Assembly (NCBI RefSeq): GCF_021228795.1
Contig: NZ_CP089309.1
Span: 3,841,501-3,905,500, forward strand
Direction of reading: 5' to 3'
Source: Thiocapsa bogorovii
Lineage (GTDB): Bacteria > Pseudomonadota > Gammaproteobacteria > Chromatiales > Chromatiaceae
Length of the DNA stretch: 64,000 bases
The translations under genes were made by a program, and so were the position numbers. Under the pieces are notes generated by a model. The model was not told the origin of the DNA. It did not search any database and saw nothing but the letters and a program-made list of their open reading frames with translations. Of this stretch, positions 29,252-39,987 are shown piece by piece (positions within the stretch are counted from its first letter, which is position 1; the number at the start of each line of letters is the position of its first letter).

Positions 29252-29294
29252 TGGCGTCCCCACGGGGGTTCGAACCCCGGTTACCGCTGTGAAA
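29252..29294 (-). other. tRNA-Glu(UUC) 3'-half remnant: predicted left attachment site
   Basis: Read on the minus strand, this is the 3' half of tRNA-Glu from the anticodon loop CTTTCAC through the T-arm GGGGTTCGAACCCC to the encoded CCA. The preceding 5' half (29295-29330) keeps a tRNA-like length and a possible D-stem. Its anticodon stem cannot pair (GAACT against AGCGG) and the acceptor strand has mismatches. The gene is therefore not functional as written. Adjacency to an integrase makes it the likely att site, displaced when an element inserted. Confidence 0.75.
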
Positions 29295-29402
29295 GAGTTC
29301 TATCCTGGACGTCCCAGGATCTTCTGGGACAACAGCAACATTATGATATAGTTTGAGATTTAACGTTTTTCATCCCATACTATCCATCGTGATCCCAGAT
29401 CA

Positions 29403-29440: not shown

Positions 29441-30718
29441 ATGGCACGATCGGTCAGAAGCAATCCTCTCGAAACCCGTACCAATCGCCTTAAGCTCGCG
29501 ATCCGCGGCACGCTTCATTTTGTGACGATCGGTGACGGCTTGGCCTTGGGTTACCGTCGCACCATGAAGGGCAACGGGACCTGGCAGGCCAGGTTGTGGA
29601 CCGGCGAAAAGTATCTGAAGCACACGCTGGGTGAGGCTGATGACTTTATGGAAGCCGATGAGACGAACGTGCTCACGTTCTTCCAAGCTCAGGGCAAGGC
29701 AATTGCGTTTGCTCAGGAGGCCCGCAAACCTGATCTACCCAACAGCAAGCCAGTCACCTTGGGCGAGGCGGCGACCGCCTATCTGGCGTGGTACAAGGAC
29801 CACCGCAAGGCATACCGTGAGACCGAGGCCACGGTGAATGCCCACATCCTGCCGACCTGGGCGGATAAACTGCTCATGGACATCACGACGCCCGAGATCA
29901 AACGGTGGCATAAAAAGTTGGCCACTACTCCGGCCCGCAAGCGTAGCAGTAATCGATCCACGAAGACGGCCTATCGGGAACAAGCCACCACTCCGGACGG
30001 GAAACGCGCCAGAAGATCTACCGCCAATCGGATCCTGACAGTCTTGAAAGCGATCATGAACAAAGCGTTTCGGGATGGGCTGGTCAGCGACGACACCGCG
30101 TGGCGGCGTGTGAAGCCTTTCGAGAACGCCGACGAACCTGTTACCCGATTCTTGAGCACCGCCCAATCCATCCGGCTCATCAATGCATGCCAGCCGCACT
30201 TCCGCCAGTTGGTGAAGGCGGCCTTATTCACTGGTTGCCGATACGGAGAACTGACTCGTTTGCTCACGAAGGACGTGAACCTCGATACCGGCTTGGTCTA
30301 TATCAGCCCCGAGGCCAAGAGCGGTAAAGGTCGTCATGTCCCTCTGCATGCCGAGGGCCTGGATTTCTTCAAGACCAGCATCACGGTTAAGACTGGGAAG
30401 GACTACGTTTTCGTGCGGGAGGATGCCGACCCCTGGGGTAAGAACCACCATGTCCGATTGCTCAAAGCCGCCTGTGCGCAAGCCAAGATCGAACCGGAGA
30501 TTGGCTTTCACGAGCTACGCCACACCTACGCCAGTACCCTGGCGCAGATGGGGGTGGATTTGCTTACCATCTCCAAGCTGTTGGGCCATGCCGACACCCG
30601 CATCACCAGCCGACATTATGCCCACCTGTGCGACAACACCCTGAAGGCCGCCGTCGCGAAACTGCCTGGTTTCGGCCACCGAGTCGACCCGAAGGTGAAG
30701 GCAGTATTGTCGAGTTGA
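29441..30718 (+). CDS. int: Tyrosine site-specific recombinase (integrase)
   Basis: 425 residues. An N-terminal region (about 1-100) probably binds arm sites, a SAM-like core-binding domain follows (TLGEAATAYLAWYKDHRKAY), then the catalytic domain. Catalytic residues seen: Arg267 in TGCRYGEL, His357 and Arg360 in HELRHTYAS, and Tyr393 in RHYAH, with LLGHADTRIT between. The integrase is complete. It lies about 150 bp from the tRNA-Glu remnant and reads away from it, so it should catalyse integration and excision of the element at that tRNA. Confidence 0.95.
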   Translation: MARSVRSNPLETRTNRLKLAIRGTLHFVTIGDGLALGYRRTMKGNGTWQARLWTGEKYLKHTLGEADDFMEADETNVLTFFQAQGKAIAFAQEARKPDLPNSKPVTLGEAATAYLAWYKDHRKAYRETEATVNAHILPTWADKLLMDITTPEIKRWHKKLATTPARKRSSNRSTKTAYREQATTPDGKRARRSTANRILTVLKAIMNKAFRDGLVSDDTAWRRVKPFENADEPVTRFLSTAQSIRLINACQPHFRQLVKAALFTGCRYGELTRLLTKDVNLDTGLVYISPEAKSGKGRHVPLHAEGLDFFKTSITVKTGKDYVFVREDADPWGKNHHVRLLKAACAQAKIEPEIGFHELRHTYASTLAQMGVDLLTISKLLGHADTRITSRHYAHLCDNTLKAAVAKLPGFGHRVDPKVKAVLSS

Positions 30719-31426: not shown

Positions 31427-31636
31427 CTAAGACCAGGGTGCGAACTCGTCGTCGGTGGCCGCGCGGATCAGCGCGGCGAGGATCGCTTCGATGTCATGCT
31501 CGGGCCATGCAGCCGCGCGTGCACCCAGCGCGATCGGACGTGGAAAGAGTCCGGCGGCGATGCGGGCATACACTCGTGAACGGCTGTAGCCGGTGCGCTC
31601 AAGCACGGTTCGTAAGCGCAGCACAGAGGTTGGCAT
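31427..31636 (-). CDS. AlpA family transcriptional regulator
   Basis: 69-residue MerR-like helix-turn-helix protein. Seen: LRLRTVLERTGYSRSRVYAR followed by GLFPRPIALGARAAAWPEHD, the standard AlpA pattern ending in a short acidic tail. AlpA proteins on phages and islands activate excision or act as excisionase-like factors. The IS1380-type element is inserted 5 bp upstream of its start codon, separating it from the FlhD-FlhC-like genes with which it probably once formed an operon. Confidence 0.85.
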   Translation of the reverse strand: MPTSVLRLRTVLERTGYSRSRVYARIAAGLFPRPIALGARAAAWPEHDIEAILAALIRAATDDEFAPWS

Positions 31637-31641
31637 ATAAC

Positions 31642-33329
31642 CCTAAAAAGAGCAGTTAAACCTTGCCTCGAGTGATCCAAGCGGCTGAAATATCGGCGCA
31701 AGGAGGTCCCGATGAGCAATCCGATCCCTCACCCGCAGGGTGAACCCGAAACCACCGCATTGGTACCGCATGCCGGCCCGGTTGCGGTGGACACGTTTGG
31801 CGGCCGCGTCCACGTCGAGTGGGATGCGCAGGCGGCGGTCACCCCGCTGGGGCAGCTGCCGTTCTTCACCGAGTTTCTGCGCCTGGGCGGGCGCTTCGAC
31901 GCCTGGGTCGAGAGCTGCCCGCTGAAGCTGACCAGCCCGAACGCCCCGAGCACGCGCGACGTTCTCGGTACCGCCATCCTGGCGGTGCTGTCCGGGCATC
32001 AGCGCGATGCCCACATCATTGCCCTGCGCGGCGACACCATCAACGCCGCCCTGCTGGGCATGGAGGCGGTGGTGAGCGAGGACTCGGTGCGCCGCAACCT
32101 CGGCAAGCTCGATGAAGCCGACGGGGTGGCCTGGTTGCAGAACCATCTGGACGCCTGCGTGGCCCCGGTGCCGGGCGTGCCCTGGATTCTCGATACCGAC
32201 GTGACGGTCAAGCCGCTCTACGGGCATCAAGAGGGTGCGCTCAAGGGCTACAACCCGCACAAGCCGGGGCGCCCTTCGCACACCTACCACACCTATTTCG
32301 TCGCCGGTCTGCGTCTGATCCTGGACGTGGAGGTGCTGGCCGGCAACCAAACCGCGTCCAAGTACAGCGCGCCGGGGCTGTGGGAGTTGCTCGCGCGCCT
32401 GCCGCGGGTGCACTGGCCGCTGTGCATTCGCGGCGACCGCGACTGGGGCACCCAAGCCAACATGGCGCGTGCCGAGCAGGAGGGGATCCCCTATCTGTTC
32501 AAGCTGCGCATGACCTCCAAGGTCAAGCAGACCGTCGAGCGCCTGATGCGCGATGCCGAGTGGTGCGATGCCGGTCAAGGCTGGCAAGGGGCCGAAACGA
32601 CCCTGCGTCTGTCGGGCTGGAGCCGCGCACGGCGCGCCGTCGTGCTGCGCCGGCGCATCAAGGCCGACCTGGCCGTCGTCGAGCAGGGTGATCCCGAGCA
32701 GCTGCGCCTGAGCTTCGCCGAGTTCACCGACCAGACGATCCTCTACGAGTACGCCGTGCTGGTGACCTCGCTGCCCCATGAGATCCTGAGCGTGGCGCAA
32801 CTCTATCGCGATCGCGCCGACGCGGAGAATCCCTTCGACGAGCTCAAGAACCATTGGGGCTGGGGCGGCTTCACCACCCGCGACATCAAGCGCTGCCGCT
32901 TCATGGCGCGCATCACCGCCTTGACCTACAACTGGTGGAGCCTGTTCGTGCGCCTGGCCGACCCGACTCGGCACACCGAGGCGATCACCAGCCGCCCGCT
33001 GCTGCTCAGCGCACCGGCACGACTGACCCGTCACGGCGGGCAGAGGCGCCTGACCATCAGCCATCCCCATGCCGAAGCCGGGTGGGTGGAGGCGACCTGC
33101 CGCGAGATCGCGGCCTTCTTCAACACCCCGCGCCGAACTGCGGAGCAGTTGAGTCCCCTGCAACGCTGGTACCGGCTCCTCTCGCGGGCGCTGGTGAAGT
33201 ATCTCAACGGCCGCCAATTGCAGCCGCCGGCGGTGTTACCGGCGCCGGCGTAGCCGCCGAACCGCCGGTATGTGTACTCGCCCGCGGGCCGAAAACGCTC
33301 CGCGACGGGCGCTAACTGCTCTTTTTAGG
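31642..33329 (+). mobile_element. IS1380-type insertion sequence with 5-bp target duplication
   Basis: 1688-bp element bounded by perfect 17-bp terminal inverted repeats CCTAAAAAGAGCAGTTA (31642-31658; complement at 33313-33329) and flanked by a 5-bp direct repeat ATAAC (31637-31641 and 33330-33334). One transposase gene fills it. CCT ends and a 5-bp duplication fit the IS1380 family. The intact duplication suggests a fairly recent insertion. Confidence 0.92.
31712..33253 (+). CDS. DDE transposase of the IS1380-type element
   Basis: 513-residue transposase with a DDE catalytic core. Seen: first Asp in WILDTDVTVKPLYG, second in CIRGDRDWGT, and the Glu region YRDRADAENPFDELKNHWGW, with the Y-R-E-K-like spacing of the IS4/IS1380 superfamily. 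AAGGAGG at 31700-31706 sets the ATG at 31712. The gene is complete and appears intact. Assignment to IS1380 rather than IS4 rests on the 5-bp target duplication and CCT ends. Confidence 0.9.
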   Translation: MSNPIPHPQGEPETTALVPHAGPVAVDTFGGRVHVEWDAQAAVTPLGQLPFFTEFLRLGGRFDAWVESCPLKLTSPNAPSTRDVLGTAILAVLSGHQRDAHIIALRGDTINAALLGMEAVVSEDSVRRNLGKLDEADGVAWLQNHLDACVAPVPGVPWILDTDVTVKPLYGHQEGALKGYNPHKPGRPSHTYHTYFVAGLRLILDVEVLAGNQTASKYSAPGLWELLARLPRVHWPLCIRGDRDWGTQANMARAEQEGIPYLFKLRMTSKVKQTVERLMRDAEWCDAGQGWQGAETTLRLSGWSRARRAVVLRRRIKADLAVVEQGDPEQLRLSFAEFTDQTILYEYAVLVTSLPHEILSVAQLYRDRADAENPFDELKNHWGWGGFTTRDIKRCRFMARITALTYNWWSLFVRLADPTRHTEAITSRPLLLSAPARLTRHGGQRRLTISHPHAEAGWVEATCREIAAFFNTPRRTAEQLSPLQRWYRLLSRALVKYLNGRQLQPPAVLPAPA

Positions 33330-33450
33330 ATAACGTCTCCAAATGAAGTAGGCGTTTCGATTGGCGCTTCGGCGCGCCGGGATTGGGCTGAGCGCCAAGA
33401 TGGATCTAACGGTGATCGCTCGAGTCGCAGGGTGAGCGGGGCGGCCGACG

Positions 33451-34050
33451 TCAGGGATCTGTTGTCGTGATGTGATCCCTGTGCTCGCCAGCCGGAGGTG
33501 AATGCACGGCTTCGTCGGGTGGCAGGTGATCAGCCCCATCGCGCGACTGCCGAGACACCTTCAACGCACAGATCGGACAATCCACGGCCCGGTGCGAGAA
33601 CGCCCTTGCAACATAGGGGATCGCGCAGCGCTCGCAGCTGCGAAAGAGCACAAGCCCCGTGGTCAGGTCGCGTGCAATCACCCAGCTATGATTGATGTCG
33701 AGGGGTGAACCGAGCGTGTCGGATGCCGCCAGCCGCGTCATCTGCTCCAGATAGAGGCGATGCCCCGTGAGCAGCGCCTCGATGTCGATGCTCCGCTGAA
33801 CCGCCGCGCCGCCGAAGGCGCGATACAAGCCCGTGAACAGCGATGCGTTGGCCTGCCGGCGCGCCGTGCCGAGGAGGGTGGCGGTGCTCGGCAGCTGACC
33901 GGGCAAAGGCTTACAGCCGTGGATCTCGTGGTGCAGTTCGCGCAGTACGGCCGGCCGCAGACCGCTGATCCGCGCCACAAGCGAGGTGCGCATGCCGCGC
34001 CGGATCAAGGCGATCGCCAGCTGCGTCCTGGCGTGATGCCGAAGTCTCAT
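33451..34050 (-). CDS. FlhC-like transcriptional activator (SetC/AcaC-type) on a mobile element
   Basis: 199 residues. Seen: helical N-terminus RTQLAIALIRRGMRTSLVAR with LRPAVLRELHHEIHGCKPLPGQ, like the DNA-recognition region of FlhC, and a C-terminal zinc motif of two C-x2-C pairs (CERCAIP and CPICALK) like the four zinc cysteines of FlhC. It overlaps the FlhD-like gene as ATGA. FlhC homologues on integrative elements and IncC plasmids (SetC, AcaC, SgaC) switch on transfer and excision genes. No flagellar genes lie nearby, so that role is inferred. Confidence 0.75.
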   Translation of the reverse strand: MRLRHHARTQLAIALIRRGMRTSLVARISGLRPAVLRELHHEIHGCKPLPGQLPSTATLLGTARRQANASLFTGLYRAFGGAAVQRSIDIEALLTGHRLYLEQMTRLAASDTLGSPLDINHSWVIARDLTTGLVLFRSCERCAIPYVARAFSHRAVDCPICALKVSRQSRDGADHLPPDEAVHSPPAGEHRDHITTTDP

Positions 34051-34403
34051 GGCTGCGCGGCCTCGTCGGCGGCGAGCAGAATCACCTGCAGCCCCAACCC
34101 GAGTGCGGACGGCCCGGTCGTCCGAAGACGTTCCTGCAGCCAGCACACACGAAAACGCGGTCGAAACAACAGCACGCCCGAAGCAGCCAGTTCGTGCAGC
34201 ATTGCGAGCGAGGCATGACGCAGGATGTCCAGCACTTCTCGGTCGAGACCATAGACCAAGACGGCCTTTTCGGCGTCCGAACGGGCGAGTTCGCGTGCGC
34301 CGAGCAGCCACATCAGATTCAGGGTATCGACCTCGCAATCTTGGTACGCCGCAGGGTCTATCCGGGGTGCTTCCCCGTCGGGGGTCTTGTGCGTGTCCGT
34401 CAT
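34047..34403 (-). CDS. FlhD-like transcriptional co-activator (SetD/AcaD-type)
   Basis: 118 residues, close to the length of FlhD. Seen: VDTLNLMWLLGARELARSDAE, VYGLDREVLDILRHASLAML and SGVLLFRPRF, which follow the FlhD pattern (N-L-x-L-L, then a helix pair ending in a short basic strand). It is the first gene of the pair and its stop overlaps the FlhC-like start (34047-34050). ATG 34403 was chosen; ATG 34427 would add eight residues. FlhD alone is weakly conserved, so the call leans on its neighbour. Confidence 0.65.
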   Translation of the reverse strand: MTDTHKTPDGEAPRIDPAAYQDCEVDTLNLMWLLGARELARSDAEKAVLVYGLDREVLDILRHASLAMLHELAASGVLLFRPRFRVCWLQERLRTTGPSALGLGLQVILLAADEAAQP

Positions 34404-34429
34404 CTTCGTTCTCGCGGCAAAAAACATGC

Positions 34430-34543
34430 TGACAGTGCTATAATCGTTCTCATAAAACGAAACTTTCAAATAAATAAGCGCAAATGCCGCTATATAACGC
34501 ACTATAAAGCGATTTCTCGGCACGCGACTCGGGTGGTAGAACC
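34430..34543. promoter_or_regulatory. AT-rich divergent promoter/operator region
   Basis: The only strongly AT-rich stretch in this part, lying between the FlhD-like gene (minus) and the Xre-type repressor (plus). It contains two palindromes, CGTTCTCATAAAACG (34445-34459, imperfect) and GCTATATA-N6-TATAAAGC (34489-34510, one mismatch). Both are suitable as operators. A TTATAG hexamer near 34440 on the minus strand could be the -10 box of the activator operon. Confidence 0.5.
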
Positions 34544-35008
34544 ATGACAACGGACGAACAAGATTCTGATTTAGATCCCGAATGCTCCTGGGATGCCGCC
34601 GGATTCGCCACGCGCCTGGCGCGGGCCAAGGGCATGGCGTCCACGAACGCATTCGCGCAAAAGTGTGGGATTTCCGAGAGCATCTTCCGCAAGTACCTCG
34701 CGGGCGCGAGCGTTCCCGGAGCGGACAAGCTGGTCGATATCGCCCGTGTGGCCGGCGTGTCTCTGCTCTGGCTGGCGACCGGGCAAGGGCGCGCCGAGGA
34801 CGGCACGGACGCGATCGTGCGGGGTCCGGTCGACGTGGCTCTGCTGGAAACCCTGCTCGAGTCGGTTGAAGGCGGACTCGAGGAGATCGGCGCGACCTTG
34901 ACGCCGACGAAGAAGGCCAAGCTGGTTGCGGCGCTCTACAGCCTCTATCGCAGCAGCGAGGATGTCCGCAAGGCGCCGGTGTTGGAACTCGTCAGGCTGG
35001 CGAGCTGA
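34544..35008 (+). CDS. Xre-family HTH regulator (candidate element repressor)
   Basis: 154 residues. The N-terminal domain carries a phage-repressor-like helix-turn-helix (NAFAQKCGISESIFRKYLAG, then LVDIARVAGVSLLWLATG). The C-terminal half is helical with an acidic stretch and no S24 peptidase or Ser-Lys autocleavage motif, so it would not be induced by RecA-type self-cleavage. Divergent orientation to the FlhD-FlhC-like operon mirrors setR against setCD logic and suggests that it represses them. Confidence 0.8.
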   Translation: MTTDEQDSDLDPECSWDAAGFATRLARAKGMASTNAFAQKCGISESIFRKYLAGASVPGADKLVDIARVAGVSLLWLATGQGRAEDGTDAIVRGPVDVALLETLLESVEGGLEEIGATLTPTKKAKLVAALYSLYRSSEDVRKAPVLELVRLAS

Positions 35009-35160: not shown

Positions 35161-35562
35161 ATGGTCGACAAGAGTGATGAAATTCGTTCGACAATTCGCG
35201 GGATCATGGGCGAGAGCGTGCCCAAGCCGAGACCGTCGGAGCTGGCGATGCCGTCGTTGAGCATCGATATCGGCGGCATCAATCTCAAGAACCACAACGC
35301 GTTCGAACGGGCGCATCCGGATCATCGCATCGATCTTCCCGCGATCGCGGCTGCGCCGCCGGCGGCTCAGCGCTGCCACCGACAGCACCGTAGCATTCTG
35401 CGGGTGCTCTGCACTCTGCTGCTGTTTGCCGCCATCGCCCCGCTCTACCTGGTGGAGTTCCTGTCGGACATGCCCGACAACATCATTTTGACCATCGGAT
35501 TCGTGGCGCTGCTCTTGAGTATGATCAGTTTTACGATCGCGACGATGCTCGAACCGTCCTGA
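35161..35562 (+). CDS. Small two-helix membrane protein of unknown function
   Basis: 133 residues from ATG 35161. The N-terminal 80 residues are soluble and carry LAMPSLSIDIGGINLKNHNA. Two hydrophobic helices follow at about 79-97 (ILRVLCTLLLFAAIAPLYLV) and 107-128 (IILTIGFVALLLSMISFTIA). No family was recognised. It follows the Xre repressor by 150 bp on the same strand and ends in a strong terminator, so it may belong to the same transcript. Confidence 0.55.
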   Translation: MVDKSDEIRSTIRGIMGESVPKPRPSELAMPSLSIDIGGINLKNHNAFERAHPDHRIDLPAIAAAPPAAQRCHRQHRSILRVLCTLLLFAAIAPLYLVEFLSDMPDNIILTIGFVALLLSMISFTIATMLEPS

Positions 35563-36057: not shown

Positions 36058-36309
36058 ATGACAGACAGCGATTCGGAGCCCGGAATGAACAACACCATCG
36101 GAGGAAACCTCTGTCACCTGCGCCGGCGATCCGGTCGGACCCAAGCCGAGGTGGCCAAGCGCGCCGGGGCCTCGCAAGCTTGGATCTGCCGCATCGAGAC
36201 CGGCGAGGCCAACCCGACCCTCGCCAGCATGCGCCGCATCGCCCGCGCTCTGGATGTCGAGGTCGTGGATCTGCTGCAACGCCGCCGCGAGCAGGAGTGC
36301 CCGGCATGA
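36058..36309 (+). CDS. Small Xre-family HTH regulator
   Basis: 83 residues (or 74 from the ATG at 36085). A single Cro/CI-type helix-turn-helix: NLCHLRRRSGRTQAEVAKRA, then ASQAWICRIETGEANPTLAS and RIARALDVEVVDLL. No effector domain is present. The stop overlaps the next start as ATGA (36306-36309), so it is translationally coupled to the DnaT-like gene and probably autoregulates the replication operon. Confidence 0.85.
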   Translation: MTDSDSEPGMNNTIGGNLCHLRRRSGRTQAEVAKRAGASQAWICRIETGEANPTLASMRRIARALDVEVVDLLQRRREQECPA

Positions 36310-37160
36310 GCCGAGCGGCACGCGATTGGGCTTGGGACTGCCGCGGACTGACGCCGGCCCAGCGCTTGGTCCTGCTGGCGCTGGCCGAACATGCCGACGA
36401 GGCGGGTGACTGCTGGCCGTCGTTGTCGCGCCTGGCCGCGCGCGCCGAGGTCGATCGGCGCACCGTCACGCGCTGTCTGGCGGCACTCGAGGCGCGCGGT
36501 CTGATCCAGCGCACGCGCAGCCGGCCGCAGCGCACACTCTACAGCCTTGCGGTTGGCGCATCCCCCGCGCAGGCGCCGATCCGCGACGAGGAAACAGCGT
36601 GGGGCAGCGAACCCATTCCCCTCGACGACGGACGTGCGATCGTCTTGGATCCGCTCGACCCGACGGGGCCGAATCCTCGAACCGGGGGCGACACGCCCCT
36701 GGACCGGGGGCGACAGCACCCGGGAGACCTTTCGCGCTCTGAAGCGTCATGTCCCCCGAACCGTCATATGAACGGTCATGGAACCGTCAGTAAATCGCCG
36801 TCGTCGCGACGCGACCCCGGCGTGTCACACGACATCCCGAAACGCAGACCCGATCCGGCGCGCCCGATTCCGCCCGACTGGGGACCCGGTGCCCGGGTCC
36901 TGAGTTGGGCCGCCAAGCAGGGCATCGCGCGCGATTGGGTCCAGGAACAGGTCCAGGAGTTCGTAGCCTACTGGACCGACGCCGGGTCGCACCGCACGAG
37001 TTGGGACGCCACCTTTATCCAGCGCCTGCAGACCCTGCAGGCCCGCACGACGCAGAGGCCACCGCATGAGCCGACCGGACGACTCGCCGACAAAGACTAC
37101 GCTCGCGGAGCGACCCCGCTCGATCGCATCCCCTGGCTGCTGCCGGCTGATGTCGCTTGA
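36306..37160 (+). CDS. Winged-helix/DnaT-like replication protein
   Basis: 284 residues. N-terminal winged helix (GLTPAQRLVLLALAEHADEA, then LAARAEVDRRTVTRCLAALE), as in phage and plasmid replication initiators. A disordered proline-rich middle follows, then a C-terminal DnaT-like ssDNA-binding segment at about 205-245 (ARVLSWAAKQGIARDWVQEQ and SHRTSWDATFIQRLQ). The tail ends DKDYARGATPLDRIPWL. It is coupled to the HTH gene upstream and overlaps the DnaC-like gene downstream. It is likely to load the host helicase for replication of the element. Confidence 0.75.
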   Translation: MSRAARDWAWDCRGLTPAQRLVLLALAEHADEAGDCWPSLSRLAARAEVDRRTVTRCLAALEARGLIQRTRSRPQRTLYSLAVGASPAQAPIRDEETAWGSEPIPLDDGRAIVLDPLDPTGPNPRTGGDTPLDRGRQHPGDLSRSEASCPPNRHMNGHGTVSKSPSSRRDPGVSHDIPKRRPDPARPIPPDWGPGARVLSWAAKQGIARDWVQEQVQEFVAYWTDAGSHRTSWDATFIQRLQTLQARTTQRPPHEPTGRLADKDYARGATPLDRIPWLLPADVA

Positions 37161-37824
37161 GGAGCTGGCGGAGCACGGACGCCGAGAGATCCGACAACTC
37201 CTGGCCGCACGCCGGGACGAGGCGCAACGCCGGCTCGAATCGGCCGTCGGACGCTGCGGAATCCCCCCGCGCTTTCGCGCGAAGACCTTCGAGAGCTATT
37301 TGGCCACGACGCCGGAGCAGGAGCTGGCCTCGAGGGTCTGTCGCAGCTACGCGGCGCGCTTTGCGGCCGGCGCCCGTCACGGCGACAGCCTGCTCCTGCT
37401 CGGCGGTCCCGGTACCGGCAAGACGCATCTCGCCTGTGCCATCCTCGCGAGTGTGATCCGGGCCGGCTACACGGGGCTGTTCATGTCCGTCCCGGCCGCG
37501 CTGCGCACGGTGCGCGATACCTACGCGACGCGGGCGGCGTGCTCGGAGAGCGAAGCGCTGGCGATGCTCACCGACCCCGACCTGCTGGTGCTCGACGAGG
37601 TCGGACTGGCGATCGGCAGCGACGACAAACGCCGCGCCATGCTGTTCGACGTGCTCGATACCCGCTATGCGAACCTGCGTGCCACGATCCTGATCGGCAA
37701 CCTGACCGACGAGGAGATGGAGCGCTACCTCGGCGAGCGGATCATGGACCGGCTCTGCGAAGGCGACTCCGCCGTGGTGTCCTTCACCTGGCCGAGTTAT
37801 CGGCGCAGCGGGGGTGACGTTTGA
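37150..37824 (+). CDS. DnaC/IstB-like AAA+ helicase loader
   Basis: 224 residues from ATG 37150. Seen: RCGIPPRFRAKTFESYLA, Walker A GGPGTGKTHLA, Walker B LLVLDEVGLAIGSD, sensor ILIGNLTDEEM, and a C-terminal arginine-finger region, all as in DnaC. ATG 37066 has a better Shine-Dalgarno but would overlap the conserved end of the DnaT-like gene by 95 bp. Paired with a DnaT-like protein it makes a primosome-style replication module. It is not IstB, as no IS21 istA is present. Confidence 0.85.
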   Translation: MSLEELAEHGRREIRQLLAARRDEAQRRLESAVGRCGIPPRFRAKTFESYLATTPEQELASRVCRSYAARFAAGARHGDSLLLLGGPGTGKTHLACAILASVIRAGYTGLFMSVPAALRTVRDTYATRAACSESEALAMLTDPDLLVLDEVGLAIGSDDKRRAMLFDVLDTRYANLRATILIGNLTDEEMERYLGERIMDRLCEGDSAVVSFTWPSYRRSGGDV

Positions 37825-38238: not shown

Positions 38239-38325
38239 ATCGTAGTCTGGCTACGACTGGGAGAATCAAATCAAATTGACTTTCCTTTGAAAAAGTTATA
38301 TCAATCGTAGTATGACTACGACTGG
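38239..38325 (+). promoter_or_regulatory. AbiE promoter with two operator-like repeats
   Basis: Two 22-bp copies differing at two positions (38239-38260 and 38304-38325), each centred on an inverted repeat of the form CGTAG-N5-CTACG. The second overlaps the abiEi start codon. Between them lie TTGACT (38276-38281) and TATCAA (38299-38304) at 17-bp spacing. AbiEi antitoxins of known systems bind two inverted repeats to repress their own operon, so autoregulation is likely. Confidence 0.7.
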
Positions 38326-39049
38326 CGCAAGTAAGTTAAATAAACTCTACACCCGGCTGGCGCCGGGGACGCCGCTGACCTTGGAGGACCTGGCGGCGCT
38401 GGGCATCTCAGCAGACCTGGCCGTTCACTACGTCCGGGCGGGCTGGCTCACGCGCCTGGCGCGCGGCGTCTACTGCCGCCCGAACGACACCCTGGCCCTG
38501 AATCCCAGCCTGCTGCTGCTGCAACGCAGATTCGACGGTTTACATGTCGGCGGCAGGTCGGCACTCGACTGGTATGGCCTGCGCCAGTACGTGTCGCAGC
38601 AACCTATTCTGCACCTGTACGGATGGATGGCAGCGCGCCTGCCGGAGTGGTTCACCGAGCATTTTCCGGCCGAGTATCACCGCAAGCGCCTCTTCGACGA
38701 GCAGCCGAACGCCTTGCTGCACGTCGACCCTTTCGAGAAGCGCAGCGGGGCGCCGCAGGTTTCGGCGCCGGAACGCGCGCTGCTGGAGCTGTTGAGCGAA
38801 GTCGGCGTGCGCCAATCGTTGCAGGAAGCCCGCGAACTTGTCGAAAGCGCCTACAGCCTCCGCGCCGACGTGCTGCGAGAACTGTTGCAGCACTGCATGA
38901 GCGTCAAGACCGTCCGGCTCTGTCTTCAGCTCGGCCGCGAAGGCTCACTGCCATGGGCCGTCAAGCTCGATCCCGCCAAGCTGCCGACGGGCAGTGACCG
39001 GCCCTGGGTGTCCCGATCGGCCGACGGCATCTTGGTGCTCAAATCATGA
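38312..39049 (+). CDS. abiEi: Type IV antitoxin, AbiEi family
   Basis: 245 residues. An N-terminal winged helix (LTLEDLAALGISADLAVHYV and GWLTRLARGVYCRP) is followed by the AbiEi C-terminal domain with APERALLELLSEVGVRQSLQ. In AbiE systems this protein counteracts the nucleotidyltransferase toxin AbiEii and represses the operon. It is coupled to the toxin gene by an ATGA overlap (39046-39049). The promoter carries two matching operator-like repeats. Confidence 0.9.
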   Translation: MTTTGASKLNKLYTRLAPGTPLTLEDLAALGISADLAVHYVRAGWLTRLARGVYCRPNDTLALNPSLLLLQRRFDGLHVGGRSALDWYGLRQYVSQQPILHLYGWMAARLPEWFTEHFPAEYHRKRLFDEQPNALLHVDPFEKRSGAPQVSAPERALLELLSEVGVRQSLQEARELVESAYSLRADVLRELLQHCMSVKTVRLCLQLGREGSLPWAVKLDPAKLPTGSDRPWVSRSADGILVLKS

Positions 39050-39987
39050 ATCCGGTCTATCTTGATACCGCGCGCCTGCTGACGCAGGTTGCGCCGTTGG
39101 TGTTCGTGGATGACACCTTCGCGTTGAAGGGCGGCGCGGCGATCAACCTATTCGTTCGCGACATGCCGCGCCTGTCGGTCGATCTCGATCTGATCTTTCC
39201 CGACCATGTGCCGCCGCGCGAGGAGGCGCTGGCGCGCATCAACGACGCCATCCGGCAGGCCGCCGAGCGGTTGAGGACGCGTGGGTTCCAGACGCATGCG
39301 CCGGCGGCCGATGCCGGCGAAACGAAGCTGCTGGTGCGTCGTGGTCGAATCGAAGTCAAGATCGAAGTGAACGTCGTCATGCGCGGCACGGTGCAGCCGG
39401 TGCGCCGCGCCTCGCTCAGGCCTGTCGCCCGTGACCTGCTGATGGCCGACCTGGACATCCCGGTGGTTTCGCTGGAGGACGTGTACGGCGGCAAGCTGGT
39501 CGCGGCGCTGGACCGACAGCACCCGCGAGACCTGTTCGACGTGATGCAGCTTTTCGCGCATGAGGGCATCACGCCTGGTATCCGGCGCGCCTTCGTCGTC
39601 TACCTGGCGAGCCACAACCGTCCGGTGCATGAAGTGCTGTTTCCACCGTTGCGCGACATCCGACAAGACTACGCGCACAACTTCGCGGGCATGACCGCCG
39701 AGCTGGTGCCGCTCGATGCATTGCTCGCCGCGCAAGAGCGCATGGTCCGCGAACTCCAGCAGGGGCTGGATGACAACGAGCGACGCTTCCTGCTGTCGCT
39801 GGTCGCCGGCACGCCCGACTGGTCGCTGCTGGGCATCGCACATCTCGAACATCTGCCGGGCATCCGTTGGAAGCTTCACAACTTGGCGCAGTTGCAGAAG
39901 ACCAATGCGAAGAAGTTTGCCGTGCAGGCCGATGTGCTTGCCGCCAAGCTGGCGGACAGTACGTCGCTGGCGGCTCGGGAGCATTGA
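39046..39987 (+). CDS. abiEii: Nucleotidyltransferase toxin, AbiEii/AbiGii family
   Basis: 313 residues. Seen: polymerase-beta-like nucleotidyltransferase motif LKGGAAINLFV followed by RLSVDLDLIF (the G-G and D-x-D motifs), then LEDVYGGKLVAALDRQHPRD with the conserved Lys and Asp, and a helical C-terminus. The family blocks growth, for example by nucleotidylating tRNA, and gives phage abortive infection. It forms a bicistronic unit with abiEi. Confidence 0.92.
   Translation: MNPVYLDTARLLTQVAPLVFVDDTFALKGGAAINLFVRDMPRLSVDLDLIFPDHVPPREEALARINDAIRQAAERLRTRGFQTHAPAADAGETKLLVRRGRIEVKIEVNVVMRGTVQPVRRASLRPVARDLLMADLDIPVVSLEDVYGGKLVAALDRQHPRDLFDVMQLFAHEGITPGIRRAFVVYLASHNRPVHEVLFPPLRDIRQDYAHNFAGMTAELVPLDALLAAQERMVRELQQGLDDNERRFLLSLVAGTPDWSLLGIAHLEHLPGIRWKLHNLAQLQKTNAKKFAVQADVLAAKLADSTSLAAREH

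Follow-up and report, generated by a model that had tools for sequence, protein, structure and literature searches.

The window, i.e. the whole stretch of 64,000 nucleotides analysed here, corresponds to positions 3841501-3905500 of C1, the single contig that makes up the 5.65-Mb genome of Thiocapsa bogorovii (99.99% complete). It contains the left end of an integrative conjugative element (ICE), called ICE1, with a compact regulatory module in which two coupled genes related to flhD and flhC (flhD1 and flhC1, together pair 1) are divergent from the gene of a CI-type repressor, itself upstream of replication genes. A sister element of the same genome (ICE2) has its own copy of pair 1, and both elements carry another pair (flhD2-flhC2, pair 2) beyond the window. 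Below, L followed by a number designates a stretch of DNA and G followed by a number a genome; positions with neither label nor contig name are those of the window. The module comprises the following features.

31427-31636, minus strand: alpA, regulator/excisionase of the AlpA family (PF05930, 45.4 bits)
31642-33329, plus strand: IS1380-type insertion sequence (IS) between flhC1 and alpA (17-bp terminal repeats; DDE_Tnp_1 families; transposase 31712-33253)
33451-34050, minus strand: flhC1 (PF05280, 62.7 bits; cut-off 27)
34047-34403, minus strand: flhD1 (PF05247, 32.9 bits; cut-off 27)
34404-34543, no strand: divergent flhD1/xre promoter/operator region, 140 bp, 56.4% A+T
34444-34460, no strand: candidate operator O2 (TCGT-N9-ACGA) in the putative flhD1 promoter, read by eye
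34500-34513, no strand: candidate operator O1 (CACTATAAAGCGAT) over the putative -10 of xre, read by eye
34544-35008, plus strand: xre, CI-type helix-turn-helix (HTH) repressor of 154 amino acids (PF07022, 33.8 bits)

The existence of two ATGA-coupled genes resembling FlhD and FlhC, the latter with two C-x2-C pairs, had been proposed from the letters alone (hereafter the original prediction) and is borne out by profile searches. Both products exceed their Pfam cut-offs, the flhD1 stop overlaps the flhC1 start as ATGA, and the cysteine pairs C139/C142 and C158/C161 are invariant in all 14 aligned FlhC1 sequences, whose profile matches solved FlhC chains with E values of 7.5e-18 (2avu) and 7.5e-16. 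Among Pfam families, the subunits of pair 1 match FlhD and FlhC only, with no match to DUF2857 or ParB. FlhC1 matches were obtained in 36 of 210 genomes by an order-wide search, and in 5 of the 10 other genomes of the window's genus. A close relative on a known plasmid was sought and rejected, all 1218 plasmid records matched by FlhC1 being below 60% identity.

The family names used by Pfam and NCBIfam are flagellar, and a displaced flagellar FlhDC still acting on motility would account for them. However, the chances of this explanation are close to nil: a profile search of the 99.99% complete Thiocapsa genome returned 0 matches to Flagellin_N, FlhC1 of the window scores 63 against a cut-off of 216 with the NCBIfam FlhC equivalog, and its grouping with flagellar FlhC is rejected by the approximately unbiased (AU) topology test (p-AU 3e-74). 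Because flagellin is missing and this grouping is rejected, a flagellar role is taken as refuted for this host. As the original prediction stated, the pair sits beside an integrase gene and not beside flagellar genes (neighbours int, alpA, xre, rep and dnaC), and all four FlhC genes of the genome, two per pair type, fall inside ICE1 and ICE2.

The predicted divergent repressor and AT-rich region are likewise confirmed, with 56.4% A+T in the 140 bp between flhD1 and xre versus 37.3% in the window, a value reached by 0.5% of 140-bp windows; conserved blocks run through the region in 8 aligned loci. Among Pfam and NCBIfam families, Xre matches HTH/repressor families only and no peptidase domain, in agreement with the proposal that it lacks a self-cleavage domain. 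There is a precedent for such a repressor in the transfer of IncC plasmids, which is under Acr1/Acr2 and independent of recA (PMC4207636, PMC4542580; here and below, papers with PMC numbers are cited from excerpts). Inspection by eye of 10 Thiocapsa loci revealed the word TCGYTTTAT, present twice in six of them (ICE1, ICE2, G117, G112, G111b and G110), once in two and absent from two; where there are two copies, one lies over the putative xre -10 and the other in the putative flhD1 promoter. Both Halochromatium-type loci contain the word ACGCTTTAT twice, again by eye. An automatic pattern for repressor repeats gave at least one match, and never more than two, in 9 of 14 loci but missed the window's own locus, so that the operators remain a reading by eye. 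The ratio of non-synonymous to synonymous substitution rates (dN/dS) is 0.25-0.44 for FlhC1 and FlhD1 and 0.18-0.33 for Xre (three comparisons each), i.e. purifying selection, and therefore the arrangement is not due to chance.

On the other side of pair 1, the IS is bounded by its 17-bp terminal repeats (31642-31658 and 33313-33329) and by ATAAC target repeats (31637-31641 and 33330-33334); IS1380 is the best NCBIfam model for its transposase, yet under the cut-off (143.9 versus 180 bits). A further IS1380-type transposase copy is found near the right end of ICE1 (L019 10085-11626), its first 45 residues being the same. Once the insertion and one ATAAC copy are removed from the coordinates, alpA follows flhC1 by 121 bp, where about 125 bp had been estimated. 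The operon flhD-flhC-alpA thus predicted exists without insertion elsewhere: among 21 other FlhC1 loci (that of ICE2 and 20 from other genomes), in eight (L062, L063, L064, L066-L069 and L132) flhC1 is followed on its strand by alpA after a gap of 112-131 bp, which is exactly 121 bp in L062 and L063. In L065 and L070 the next same-strand match, ~200 bp behind flhC1, is an integrase (PF00589), which in L130 lies at ~900 bp. A second FlhC-type gene followed by an integrase, on the same strand, stands behind flhC1 in L133, L137 and L078; L134, L135, L136 and L075 have the second FlhC-type gene and no same-strand integrase within the stretch examined, and L129, L131 and ICE2 none of the gene types searched for. 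Many, though not all, pair 1 operons therefore couple the activator to a recombination gene (alpA or integrase). Since the IS immediately precedes its target repeat and the start codon of alpA, alpA of the window copy is probably uncoupled from the pair 1 switch.

The tandem loci form a case of their own. Two FlhC-type genes occupy one strand at a distance of 1-2 kb from each other in L133, L135, L137, L078 and L075, which belong to Sedimenticola, to a Lamellibrachia symbiont and to further genomes; a tandem of two FlhDC pairs ahead of an integrase is seen in Sedimenticola and in a tubeworm-symbiont relative. The second FlhC of these loci forms its own clade in the FlhC tree.

Two FlhDC pairs of separate origin

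In both elements, pair 2 is located outside the window between SLT and TraF genes (L009 4088-5004 and L010 9425-10341). The gene order in ICE1 is ParM, a small open reading frame (ORF), SLT, flhD2, flhC2, TraF, TraH and TraG, ~50 kb to the right of pair 1. FlhC2 is recognized by PF05280 (61.1 bits), and FlhD2 has no match to Pfam FlhD; the 10 best Protein Data Bank (PDB) hits of a weak FlhD2 model (predicted local distance difference test score 70, 4 sequences) are all FlhD or FlhD-complex chains, with E values of at least 0.066. The position between SLT and TraF was found in 8/8 copies examined.

Both FlhC types occur on one contig in seven cases from six genomes. They are separated by 50 kb in ICE1, 144 kb (over the contig ends) in ICE2, 68 kb in G117, 53 kb each in G113 and G112 (contig 28), 30 kb in G110 (contig 56) and 124 kb in G111. 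For ICE1 and ICE2, the tRNA ends show that the two pairs share one element; in the other cases they share a contig. Three further FlhC1 copies of the genus have no FlhC2 nearby (G111 at 5.24 Mb, G112 contig 71 and G110 contig 58).

In a tree of 56 FlhC proteins, FlhC1 and FlhC2 of Thiocapsa fall into separate supported groups. That one pair arose from the other by recent duplication was considered and discarded, the grouping of FlhC1 with FlhC2 being rejected (p-AU 0.0018). Grouping with SetC and AcaC is rejected as well, for FlhC1 (p-AU 0.0039) and for FlhC2 (0.0046); since all four tested groups were named after the tree had been seen and the branches of SetC and AcaC are long (1.36 for the AcaC end branch), with possible long-branch effects, these two rejections call for particular care. 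In pairwise comparisons, FlhC1 scores highest with SetC (90.9 bits), followed by FlhC2 (77.0), E. coli FlhC (63.5) and AcaC (60.8). A SetC nearly identical to that of R997, of the SXT/R391 type (tree distance 0.011), is present in L052 (G014), a genome of the same family as that of the window; it represents either a contamination or an element similar to SXT/R391 in a host other than the usual ones.

That FlhDC1 is the sole master activator of excision and transfer, like SetCD, with FlhDC2 a leftover or a modulator, is an explanation suggested by several observations. SetC is closer to FlhC1 than to FlhC2 (90.9 versus 71.6 bits), FlhD2 is too divergent for Pfam FlhD, and the single FlhC match of G007 is of the FlhC1 type, with SLT, TraF and TraH within 6 kb. 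However, purifying selection acts on FlhC2 and FlhD2 (dN/dS 0.18 and 0.11, respectively, from one ICE1-ICE2 comparison each), both genes keep the SLT-TraF position in every copy examined, and the FlhC2 type provides the only FlhC match of G144 and G150. On balance, a sole master is unlikely.

Extent and gene content of ICE1 and ICE2

ICE1 measures ~122.6 kb (C1:3870750-3993381), is inserted in tRNA-Glu and extends well past the window, the module being its left end. The intact tRNA-Glu (ttc) is at its right end (L019 16338-16413, ARAGORN). Its gene content includes a TraI_2 (MobH-type) relaxase, TraD, TraF, TraH, TraG_N, a TrbI-type TraB, TraL, TraE and TraK, which belong to an F-type conjugation system, together with pieces that have homology to MobI of ICE2 (PF19456, 74.5 bits in ICE2). 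Integrase, repeats at the tRNA ends, relaxase and coupling protein define it as an ICE, and by gene content its type is akin to the SXT/IncC group. The remaining features of this end are as follows.

29252-29295, minus strand: left attachment site, displaced 3' part of tRNA-Glu (44-bp match, 98%, to C1:3993338-3993381, same strand)
29441-30718, plus strand: tyrosine integrase (PF00589, 104.1 bits)
35161-35562, plus strand: conserved ORF of 133 amino acids, no family in NCBIfam (phmmer)
36061-36309, plus strand: small HTH regulator, start fixed by alignment (HTH_31, 49 bits)
36306-37160, plus strand: replication initiator, DnaT/O-like (PF17948, 56.7 bits; phrog_1032)
37150-37824, plus strand: DnaC-like helicase loader (phrog_50, 213 bits)

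ICE2 starts at an intact tRNA-Leu (L020 786-870, ARAGORN), ends at a displaced 3' half (C1:34978-35040) and covers ~230 kb spanning the contig ends, an extent less certain than that of ICE1 because many ordinary chromosomal-looking genes are seen inside by eye. Its copy of the flhDC1-xre-rep-dnaC block is 87% identical over 2.9 kb. It also carries transfer genes that are missing from ICE1: a tblastn search (1e-3) of the 124-kb stretch containing ICE1 matched 0/12 genes of the ICE2 operon that begins with a DsbC-like gene and continues via TraC, TrbC_Ftype and TraU to TraN. Judged by these matches, the mating apparatus of ICE1 is incomplete relative to that of ICE2, and ICE1 may therefore be unable to transfer on its own, being either dependent on ICE2 or defective.

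These missing genes, together with the IS between flhC1 and alpA, would fit a decayed remnant in which alpA has been cut off, part of the transfer genes lost and the circuit silenced today. We regard such a decay as quite unlikely, since the flhC1-alpA gap is free of insertion at 8 other loci, the regulators are under purifying selection, and ICE2, in the same genome, has the missing transfer genes and could help.

Homologues of the 133-amino-acid ORF adjoin xre in 11 further stretches, one being that of ICE2 and the other 10 belonging to other genomes (phmmer). The ORF lies behind xre in the 10 Thiocapsa copies examined, that of G110 being interrupted by a stop, and its C-terminal part appears hydrophobic by eye. 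The small HTH gene has a further, incomplete copy near the integrase end of ICE2 (L020 2840-3187). Cargo of the window includes an AbiEi/AbiEii type IV toxin-antitoxin pair (38312-39987) and three very large ORFs (2783, 2548 and 1226 amino acids; 40269-61399), the first of which we take to resemble an RHS/SpvB-type protein.

A candidate activator box and a proposed division of labour

A block upstream of traL is conserved in 7/7 elements, while the sequence ahead of it is not. A similar block precedes the DsbC-like gene that heads the traC-traU-traN operon in 9/9 Thiocapsa loci. The two share 30/45 consensus positions and begin at a distance of 101 bp (traL) and 97 bp (dsbC) from the respective start codon. 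Comparison of the profiles gave 19.2 for traL-dsbC against a column-permutation maximum of 14.0 (0/200), and 19.3 for traL-traI against 11.8 (0/200). A 45-column traL+dsbC matrix lists the traI copy in 7/7 elements, with 8.9-18.7 bits, the control being one shuffle per element with best scores of 2.5-17.3 bits. A 27-position matrix built from traL alone gave 38.7-41.7 bits at traL in the seven elements and at most 19.0 elsewhere, with no second convincing promoter. A parM copy, first taken by eye as a further box, failed the profile test and is not claimed. By sequence, a conserved candidate activator box is thus common to traL and dsbC, and the same candidate box probably precedes traI.

Putting these data together, the region is rather probably the excision-control end of an ICE in which pair 1 drives excision and pair 2 drives transfer. 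In the quiet state, Xre would be bound to the repeats over both promoters, keeping flhD1-flhC1-alpA off. Repression would be lifted by means other than self-cleavage, and one transcript would then supply FlhD1C1 together with AlpA, so that activation and excision begin together. FlhD1C1 would turn on the conjugation operons that share the box (traL, dsbC and probably traI), and the operon with FlhD2C2 would be switched on directly or indirectly, after which FlhD2C2 would take over or reinforce the expression of transfer genes. A relay of two activators of separate origin can tentatively be conceived, in which FlhD1C1, made with AlpA or an integrase and controlled by a CI-type repressor that does not self-cleave, would commit the element to excision, and FlhD2C2, encoded within the tra operon, would lock in transfer. 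No description of a two-FlhDC relay inside one element was found in the literature surveyed, part of it in excerpt form.

Several results weigh against this division of labour. Concerning the recombination genes, alpA was matched behind flhC1 in none of 13 of the 21 other loci, and ICE2 has no alpA despite its flhDC1-xre block, its integrase being at the opposite end. Conserved motifs upstream of element genes, for which the original prediction suggested a search, were found at traL and dsbC and more weakly at traI, and none of weight at int or alpA: among the best 5 matches per element with the 45-column matrix, or up to 9 with the 27-position matrix, no weighty box precedes int, alpA, flhD1 or the replication genes, and the boxes near them are at background level (5.3 bits before flhD1 in G110, 10.0 near alpA in G112). 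The parM promoter, the expected driver of FlhDC2 and traFHG, is unsupported at its expected place; the same is true for mobI, and the profile tests traL-parM (2/200) and parM-mobI (1/200) point elsewhere. The dsbC-traI comparison alone is not significant (75/200), and the traI copy is weak, with 8.9 bits in ICE2, below two unrelated matches and the shuffle best of 17.3, and with unrelated matches outscoring it in G112. Raw identity between the traL and dsbC blocks is modest, namely 29/45 (ICE2) or 31/45 (ICE1 traL), compared with at most 28 in shuffles and at most 30 in 398 random ICE2 stretches; because it is only modest evidence, the weight rests on the profile test and the similar distance to the start codons. 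Finally, a search for the dsbC box in 5 dsbC-type loci from other genera did not find it, and the matrix gave nothing convincing in 18 stretches (dsbC-type loci of G144, G150, G181 and G182; pTs417; loci of other genera and plasmids), where the best scores were 13.5 bits in the IncC stretch and 10.0 in L108, so that the box is not assignable to one pair.

A different role for pair 1, namely to govern mainly the plasmid-like replication of the excised element as in SGI1, with FlhDC2 as transfer activator, is suggested by the location of rep and dnaC behind xre in the same block and by the requirement of SGI1 replication for its own FlhDC together with AcaCD (PMC7826253). It is nevertheless very unlikely: no weighty box was seen upstream of HTH-rep-dnaC among the best matches listed, and these genes are divergent from flhDC1, on the repressor's side.

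The interest of the proposed division of labour, with pair 1 for excision and pair 2 for transfer, stems from the fact that FlhDC-type activators decide the timing of the movement of large conjugative elements. The families described come from enterobacterial, Vibrio and Aeromonas elements, apparently with one pair each (PMC4542580). Elements of purple sulfur bacteria have two pairs that differ in origin, pair 1 being tied to recombination genes and pair 2 to transfer genes, which makes a separate switching of excision and transfer testable, likewise the induction of a CI-type switch that does not self-cleave. The conserved candidate box is a ready target for binding tests, and the presence in the same genome of two sister elements, of which one lacks some transfer genes, offers a natural case for cross-activation. 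The regulatory module is real; its functions are what we infer throughout.

Comparison with known systems

The proposal of a circuit like those of SetCD, AcaCD and SGI1 holds in part. FlhD/FlhC homology, the link with an integrase and a conjugative element, the operon and the divergent repressor agree with it; gene context and membership of the SetC/AcaC clade (p-AU 0.0039) do not. The idea of a new family of regulators was too strong, since SetCD, AcaCD, SgaCD, Rts1 and BisDC (with alpA) are already known.

The SetCD/SetR system of SXT/R391 resembles the present one by its FlhDC-type pair, its CI-like repressor, its MobH-type relaxase and its F-type type IV secretion system, and the identity between FlhC1 and SetC is 32.7% across 159 aligned columns. 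It differs in that the window repressor has no LexA-like peptidase domain, and pair 1 is accompanied by alpA or int and replication genes and belongs to a separate clade. SetCD and AcaCD activate int, xis and tra promoters (PMC4344509, PMC4207636). AcaCD of IncC plasmids, whose transfer is not under SOS control (PMC4207636, PMC4542580), acts upstream of traL, traV, dsbC, traN, traF and traI (PMC4207636); the candidate box is likewise found before traL, dsbC and probably traI.

Relatives of SetCD/AcaCD adjoin TraG, a lysozyme-like gene, partition genes and MobI (PMC4542580). The R997 record has the order SLT-setD-setC-eex-traG, unlike the setting of pair 1, and the IncC record has SLT-acaD-acaC beside ParM, matching FlhDC2 rather than the window pair, whose neighbours are int, alpA, xre, rep and dnaC; in G007, the FlhC1-type gene has SLT, TraF and TraH close by. 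Since the published context and the SLT-D-C order of IncC and R997 match the neighbours of pair 2, it is pair 2 that holds the SetCD/AcaCD genomic position, not the pair of the window. The same context (SLT, TraG and MobI) is that of setC/setD/setR in the IncT plasmid Rts1 (PMC10838148), which, like the present elements, has an FlhC-type activator and an SLT gene, and whose repressor lacks significant homology to SetR.

Two FlhDC pairs also act on SGI1, whose own FlhDC (SgaCD) helps AcaCD to drive RepA, both pairs being needed for SGI1 replication (PMC7826253); there, however, the second pair comes from the IncC helper plasmid, whereas here both reside in one element. In ICEclc, alpA and an FlhC-like activator (BisDC) are on one transcript, as in the pair 1 operons. 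However, BisC belongs to DUF2857 and BisD has a ParB domain and no FlhD domain, alpA is the first gene, ahead of parA-shi-bisDC, instead of the last, and the input passes via TciR and BisR and not via a divergent CI-type repressor (PMC7423338). Compared with all these systems, what is new is a second, separate pair and the fact that pair 1 is often linked to alpA or int.

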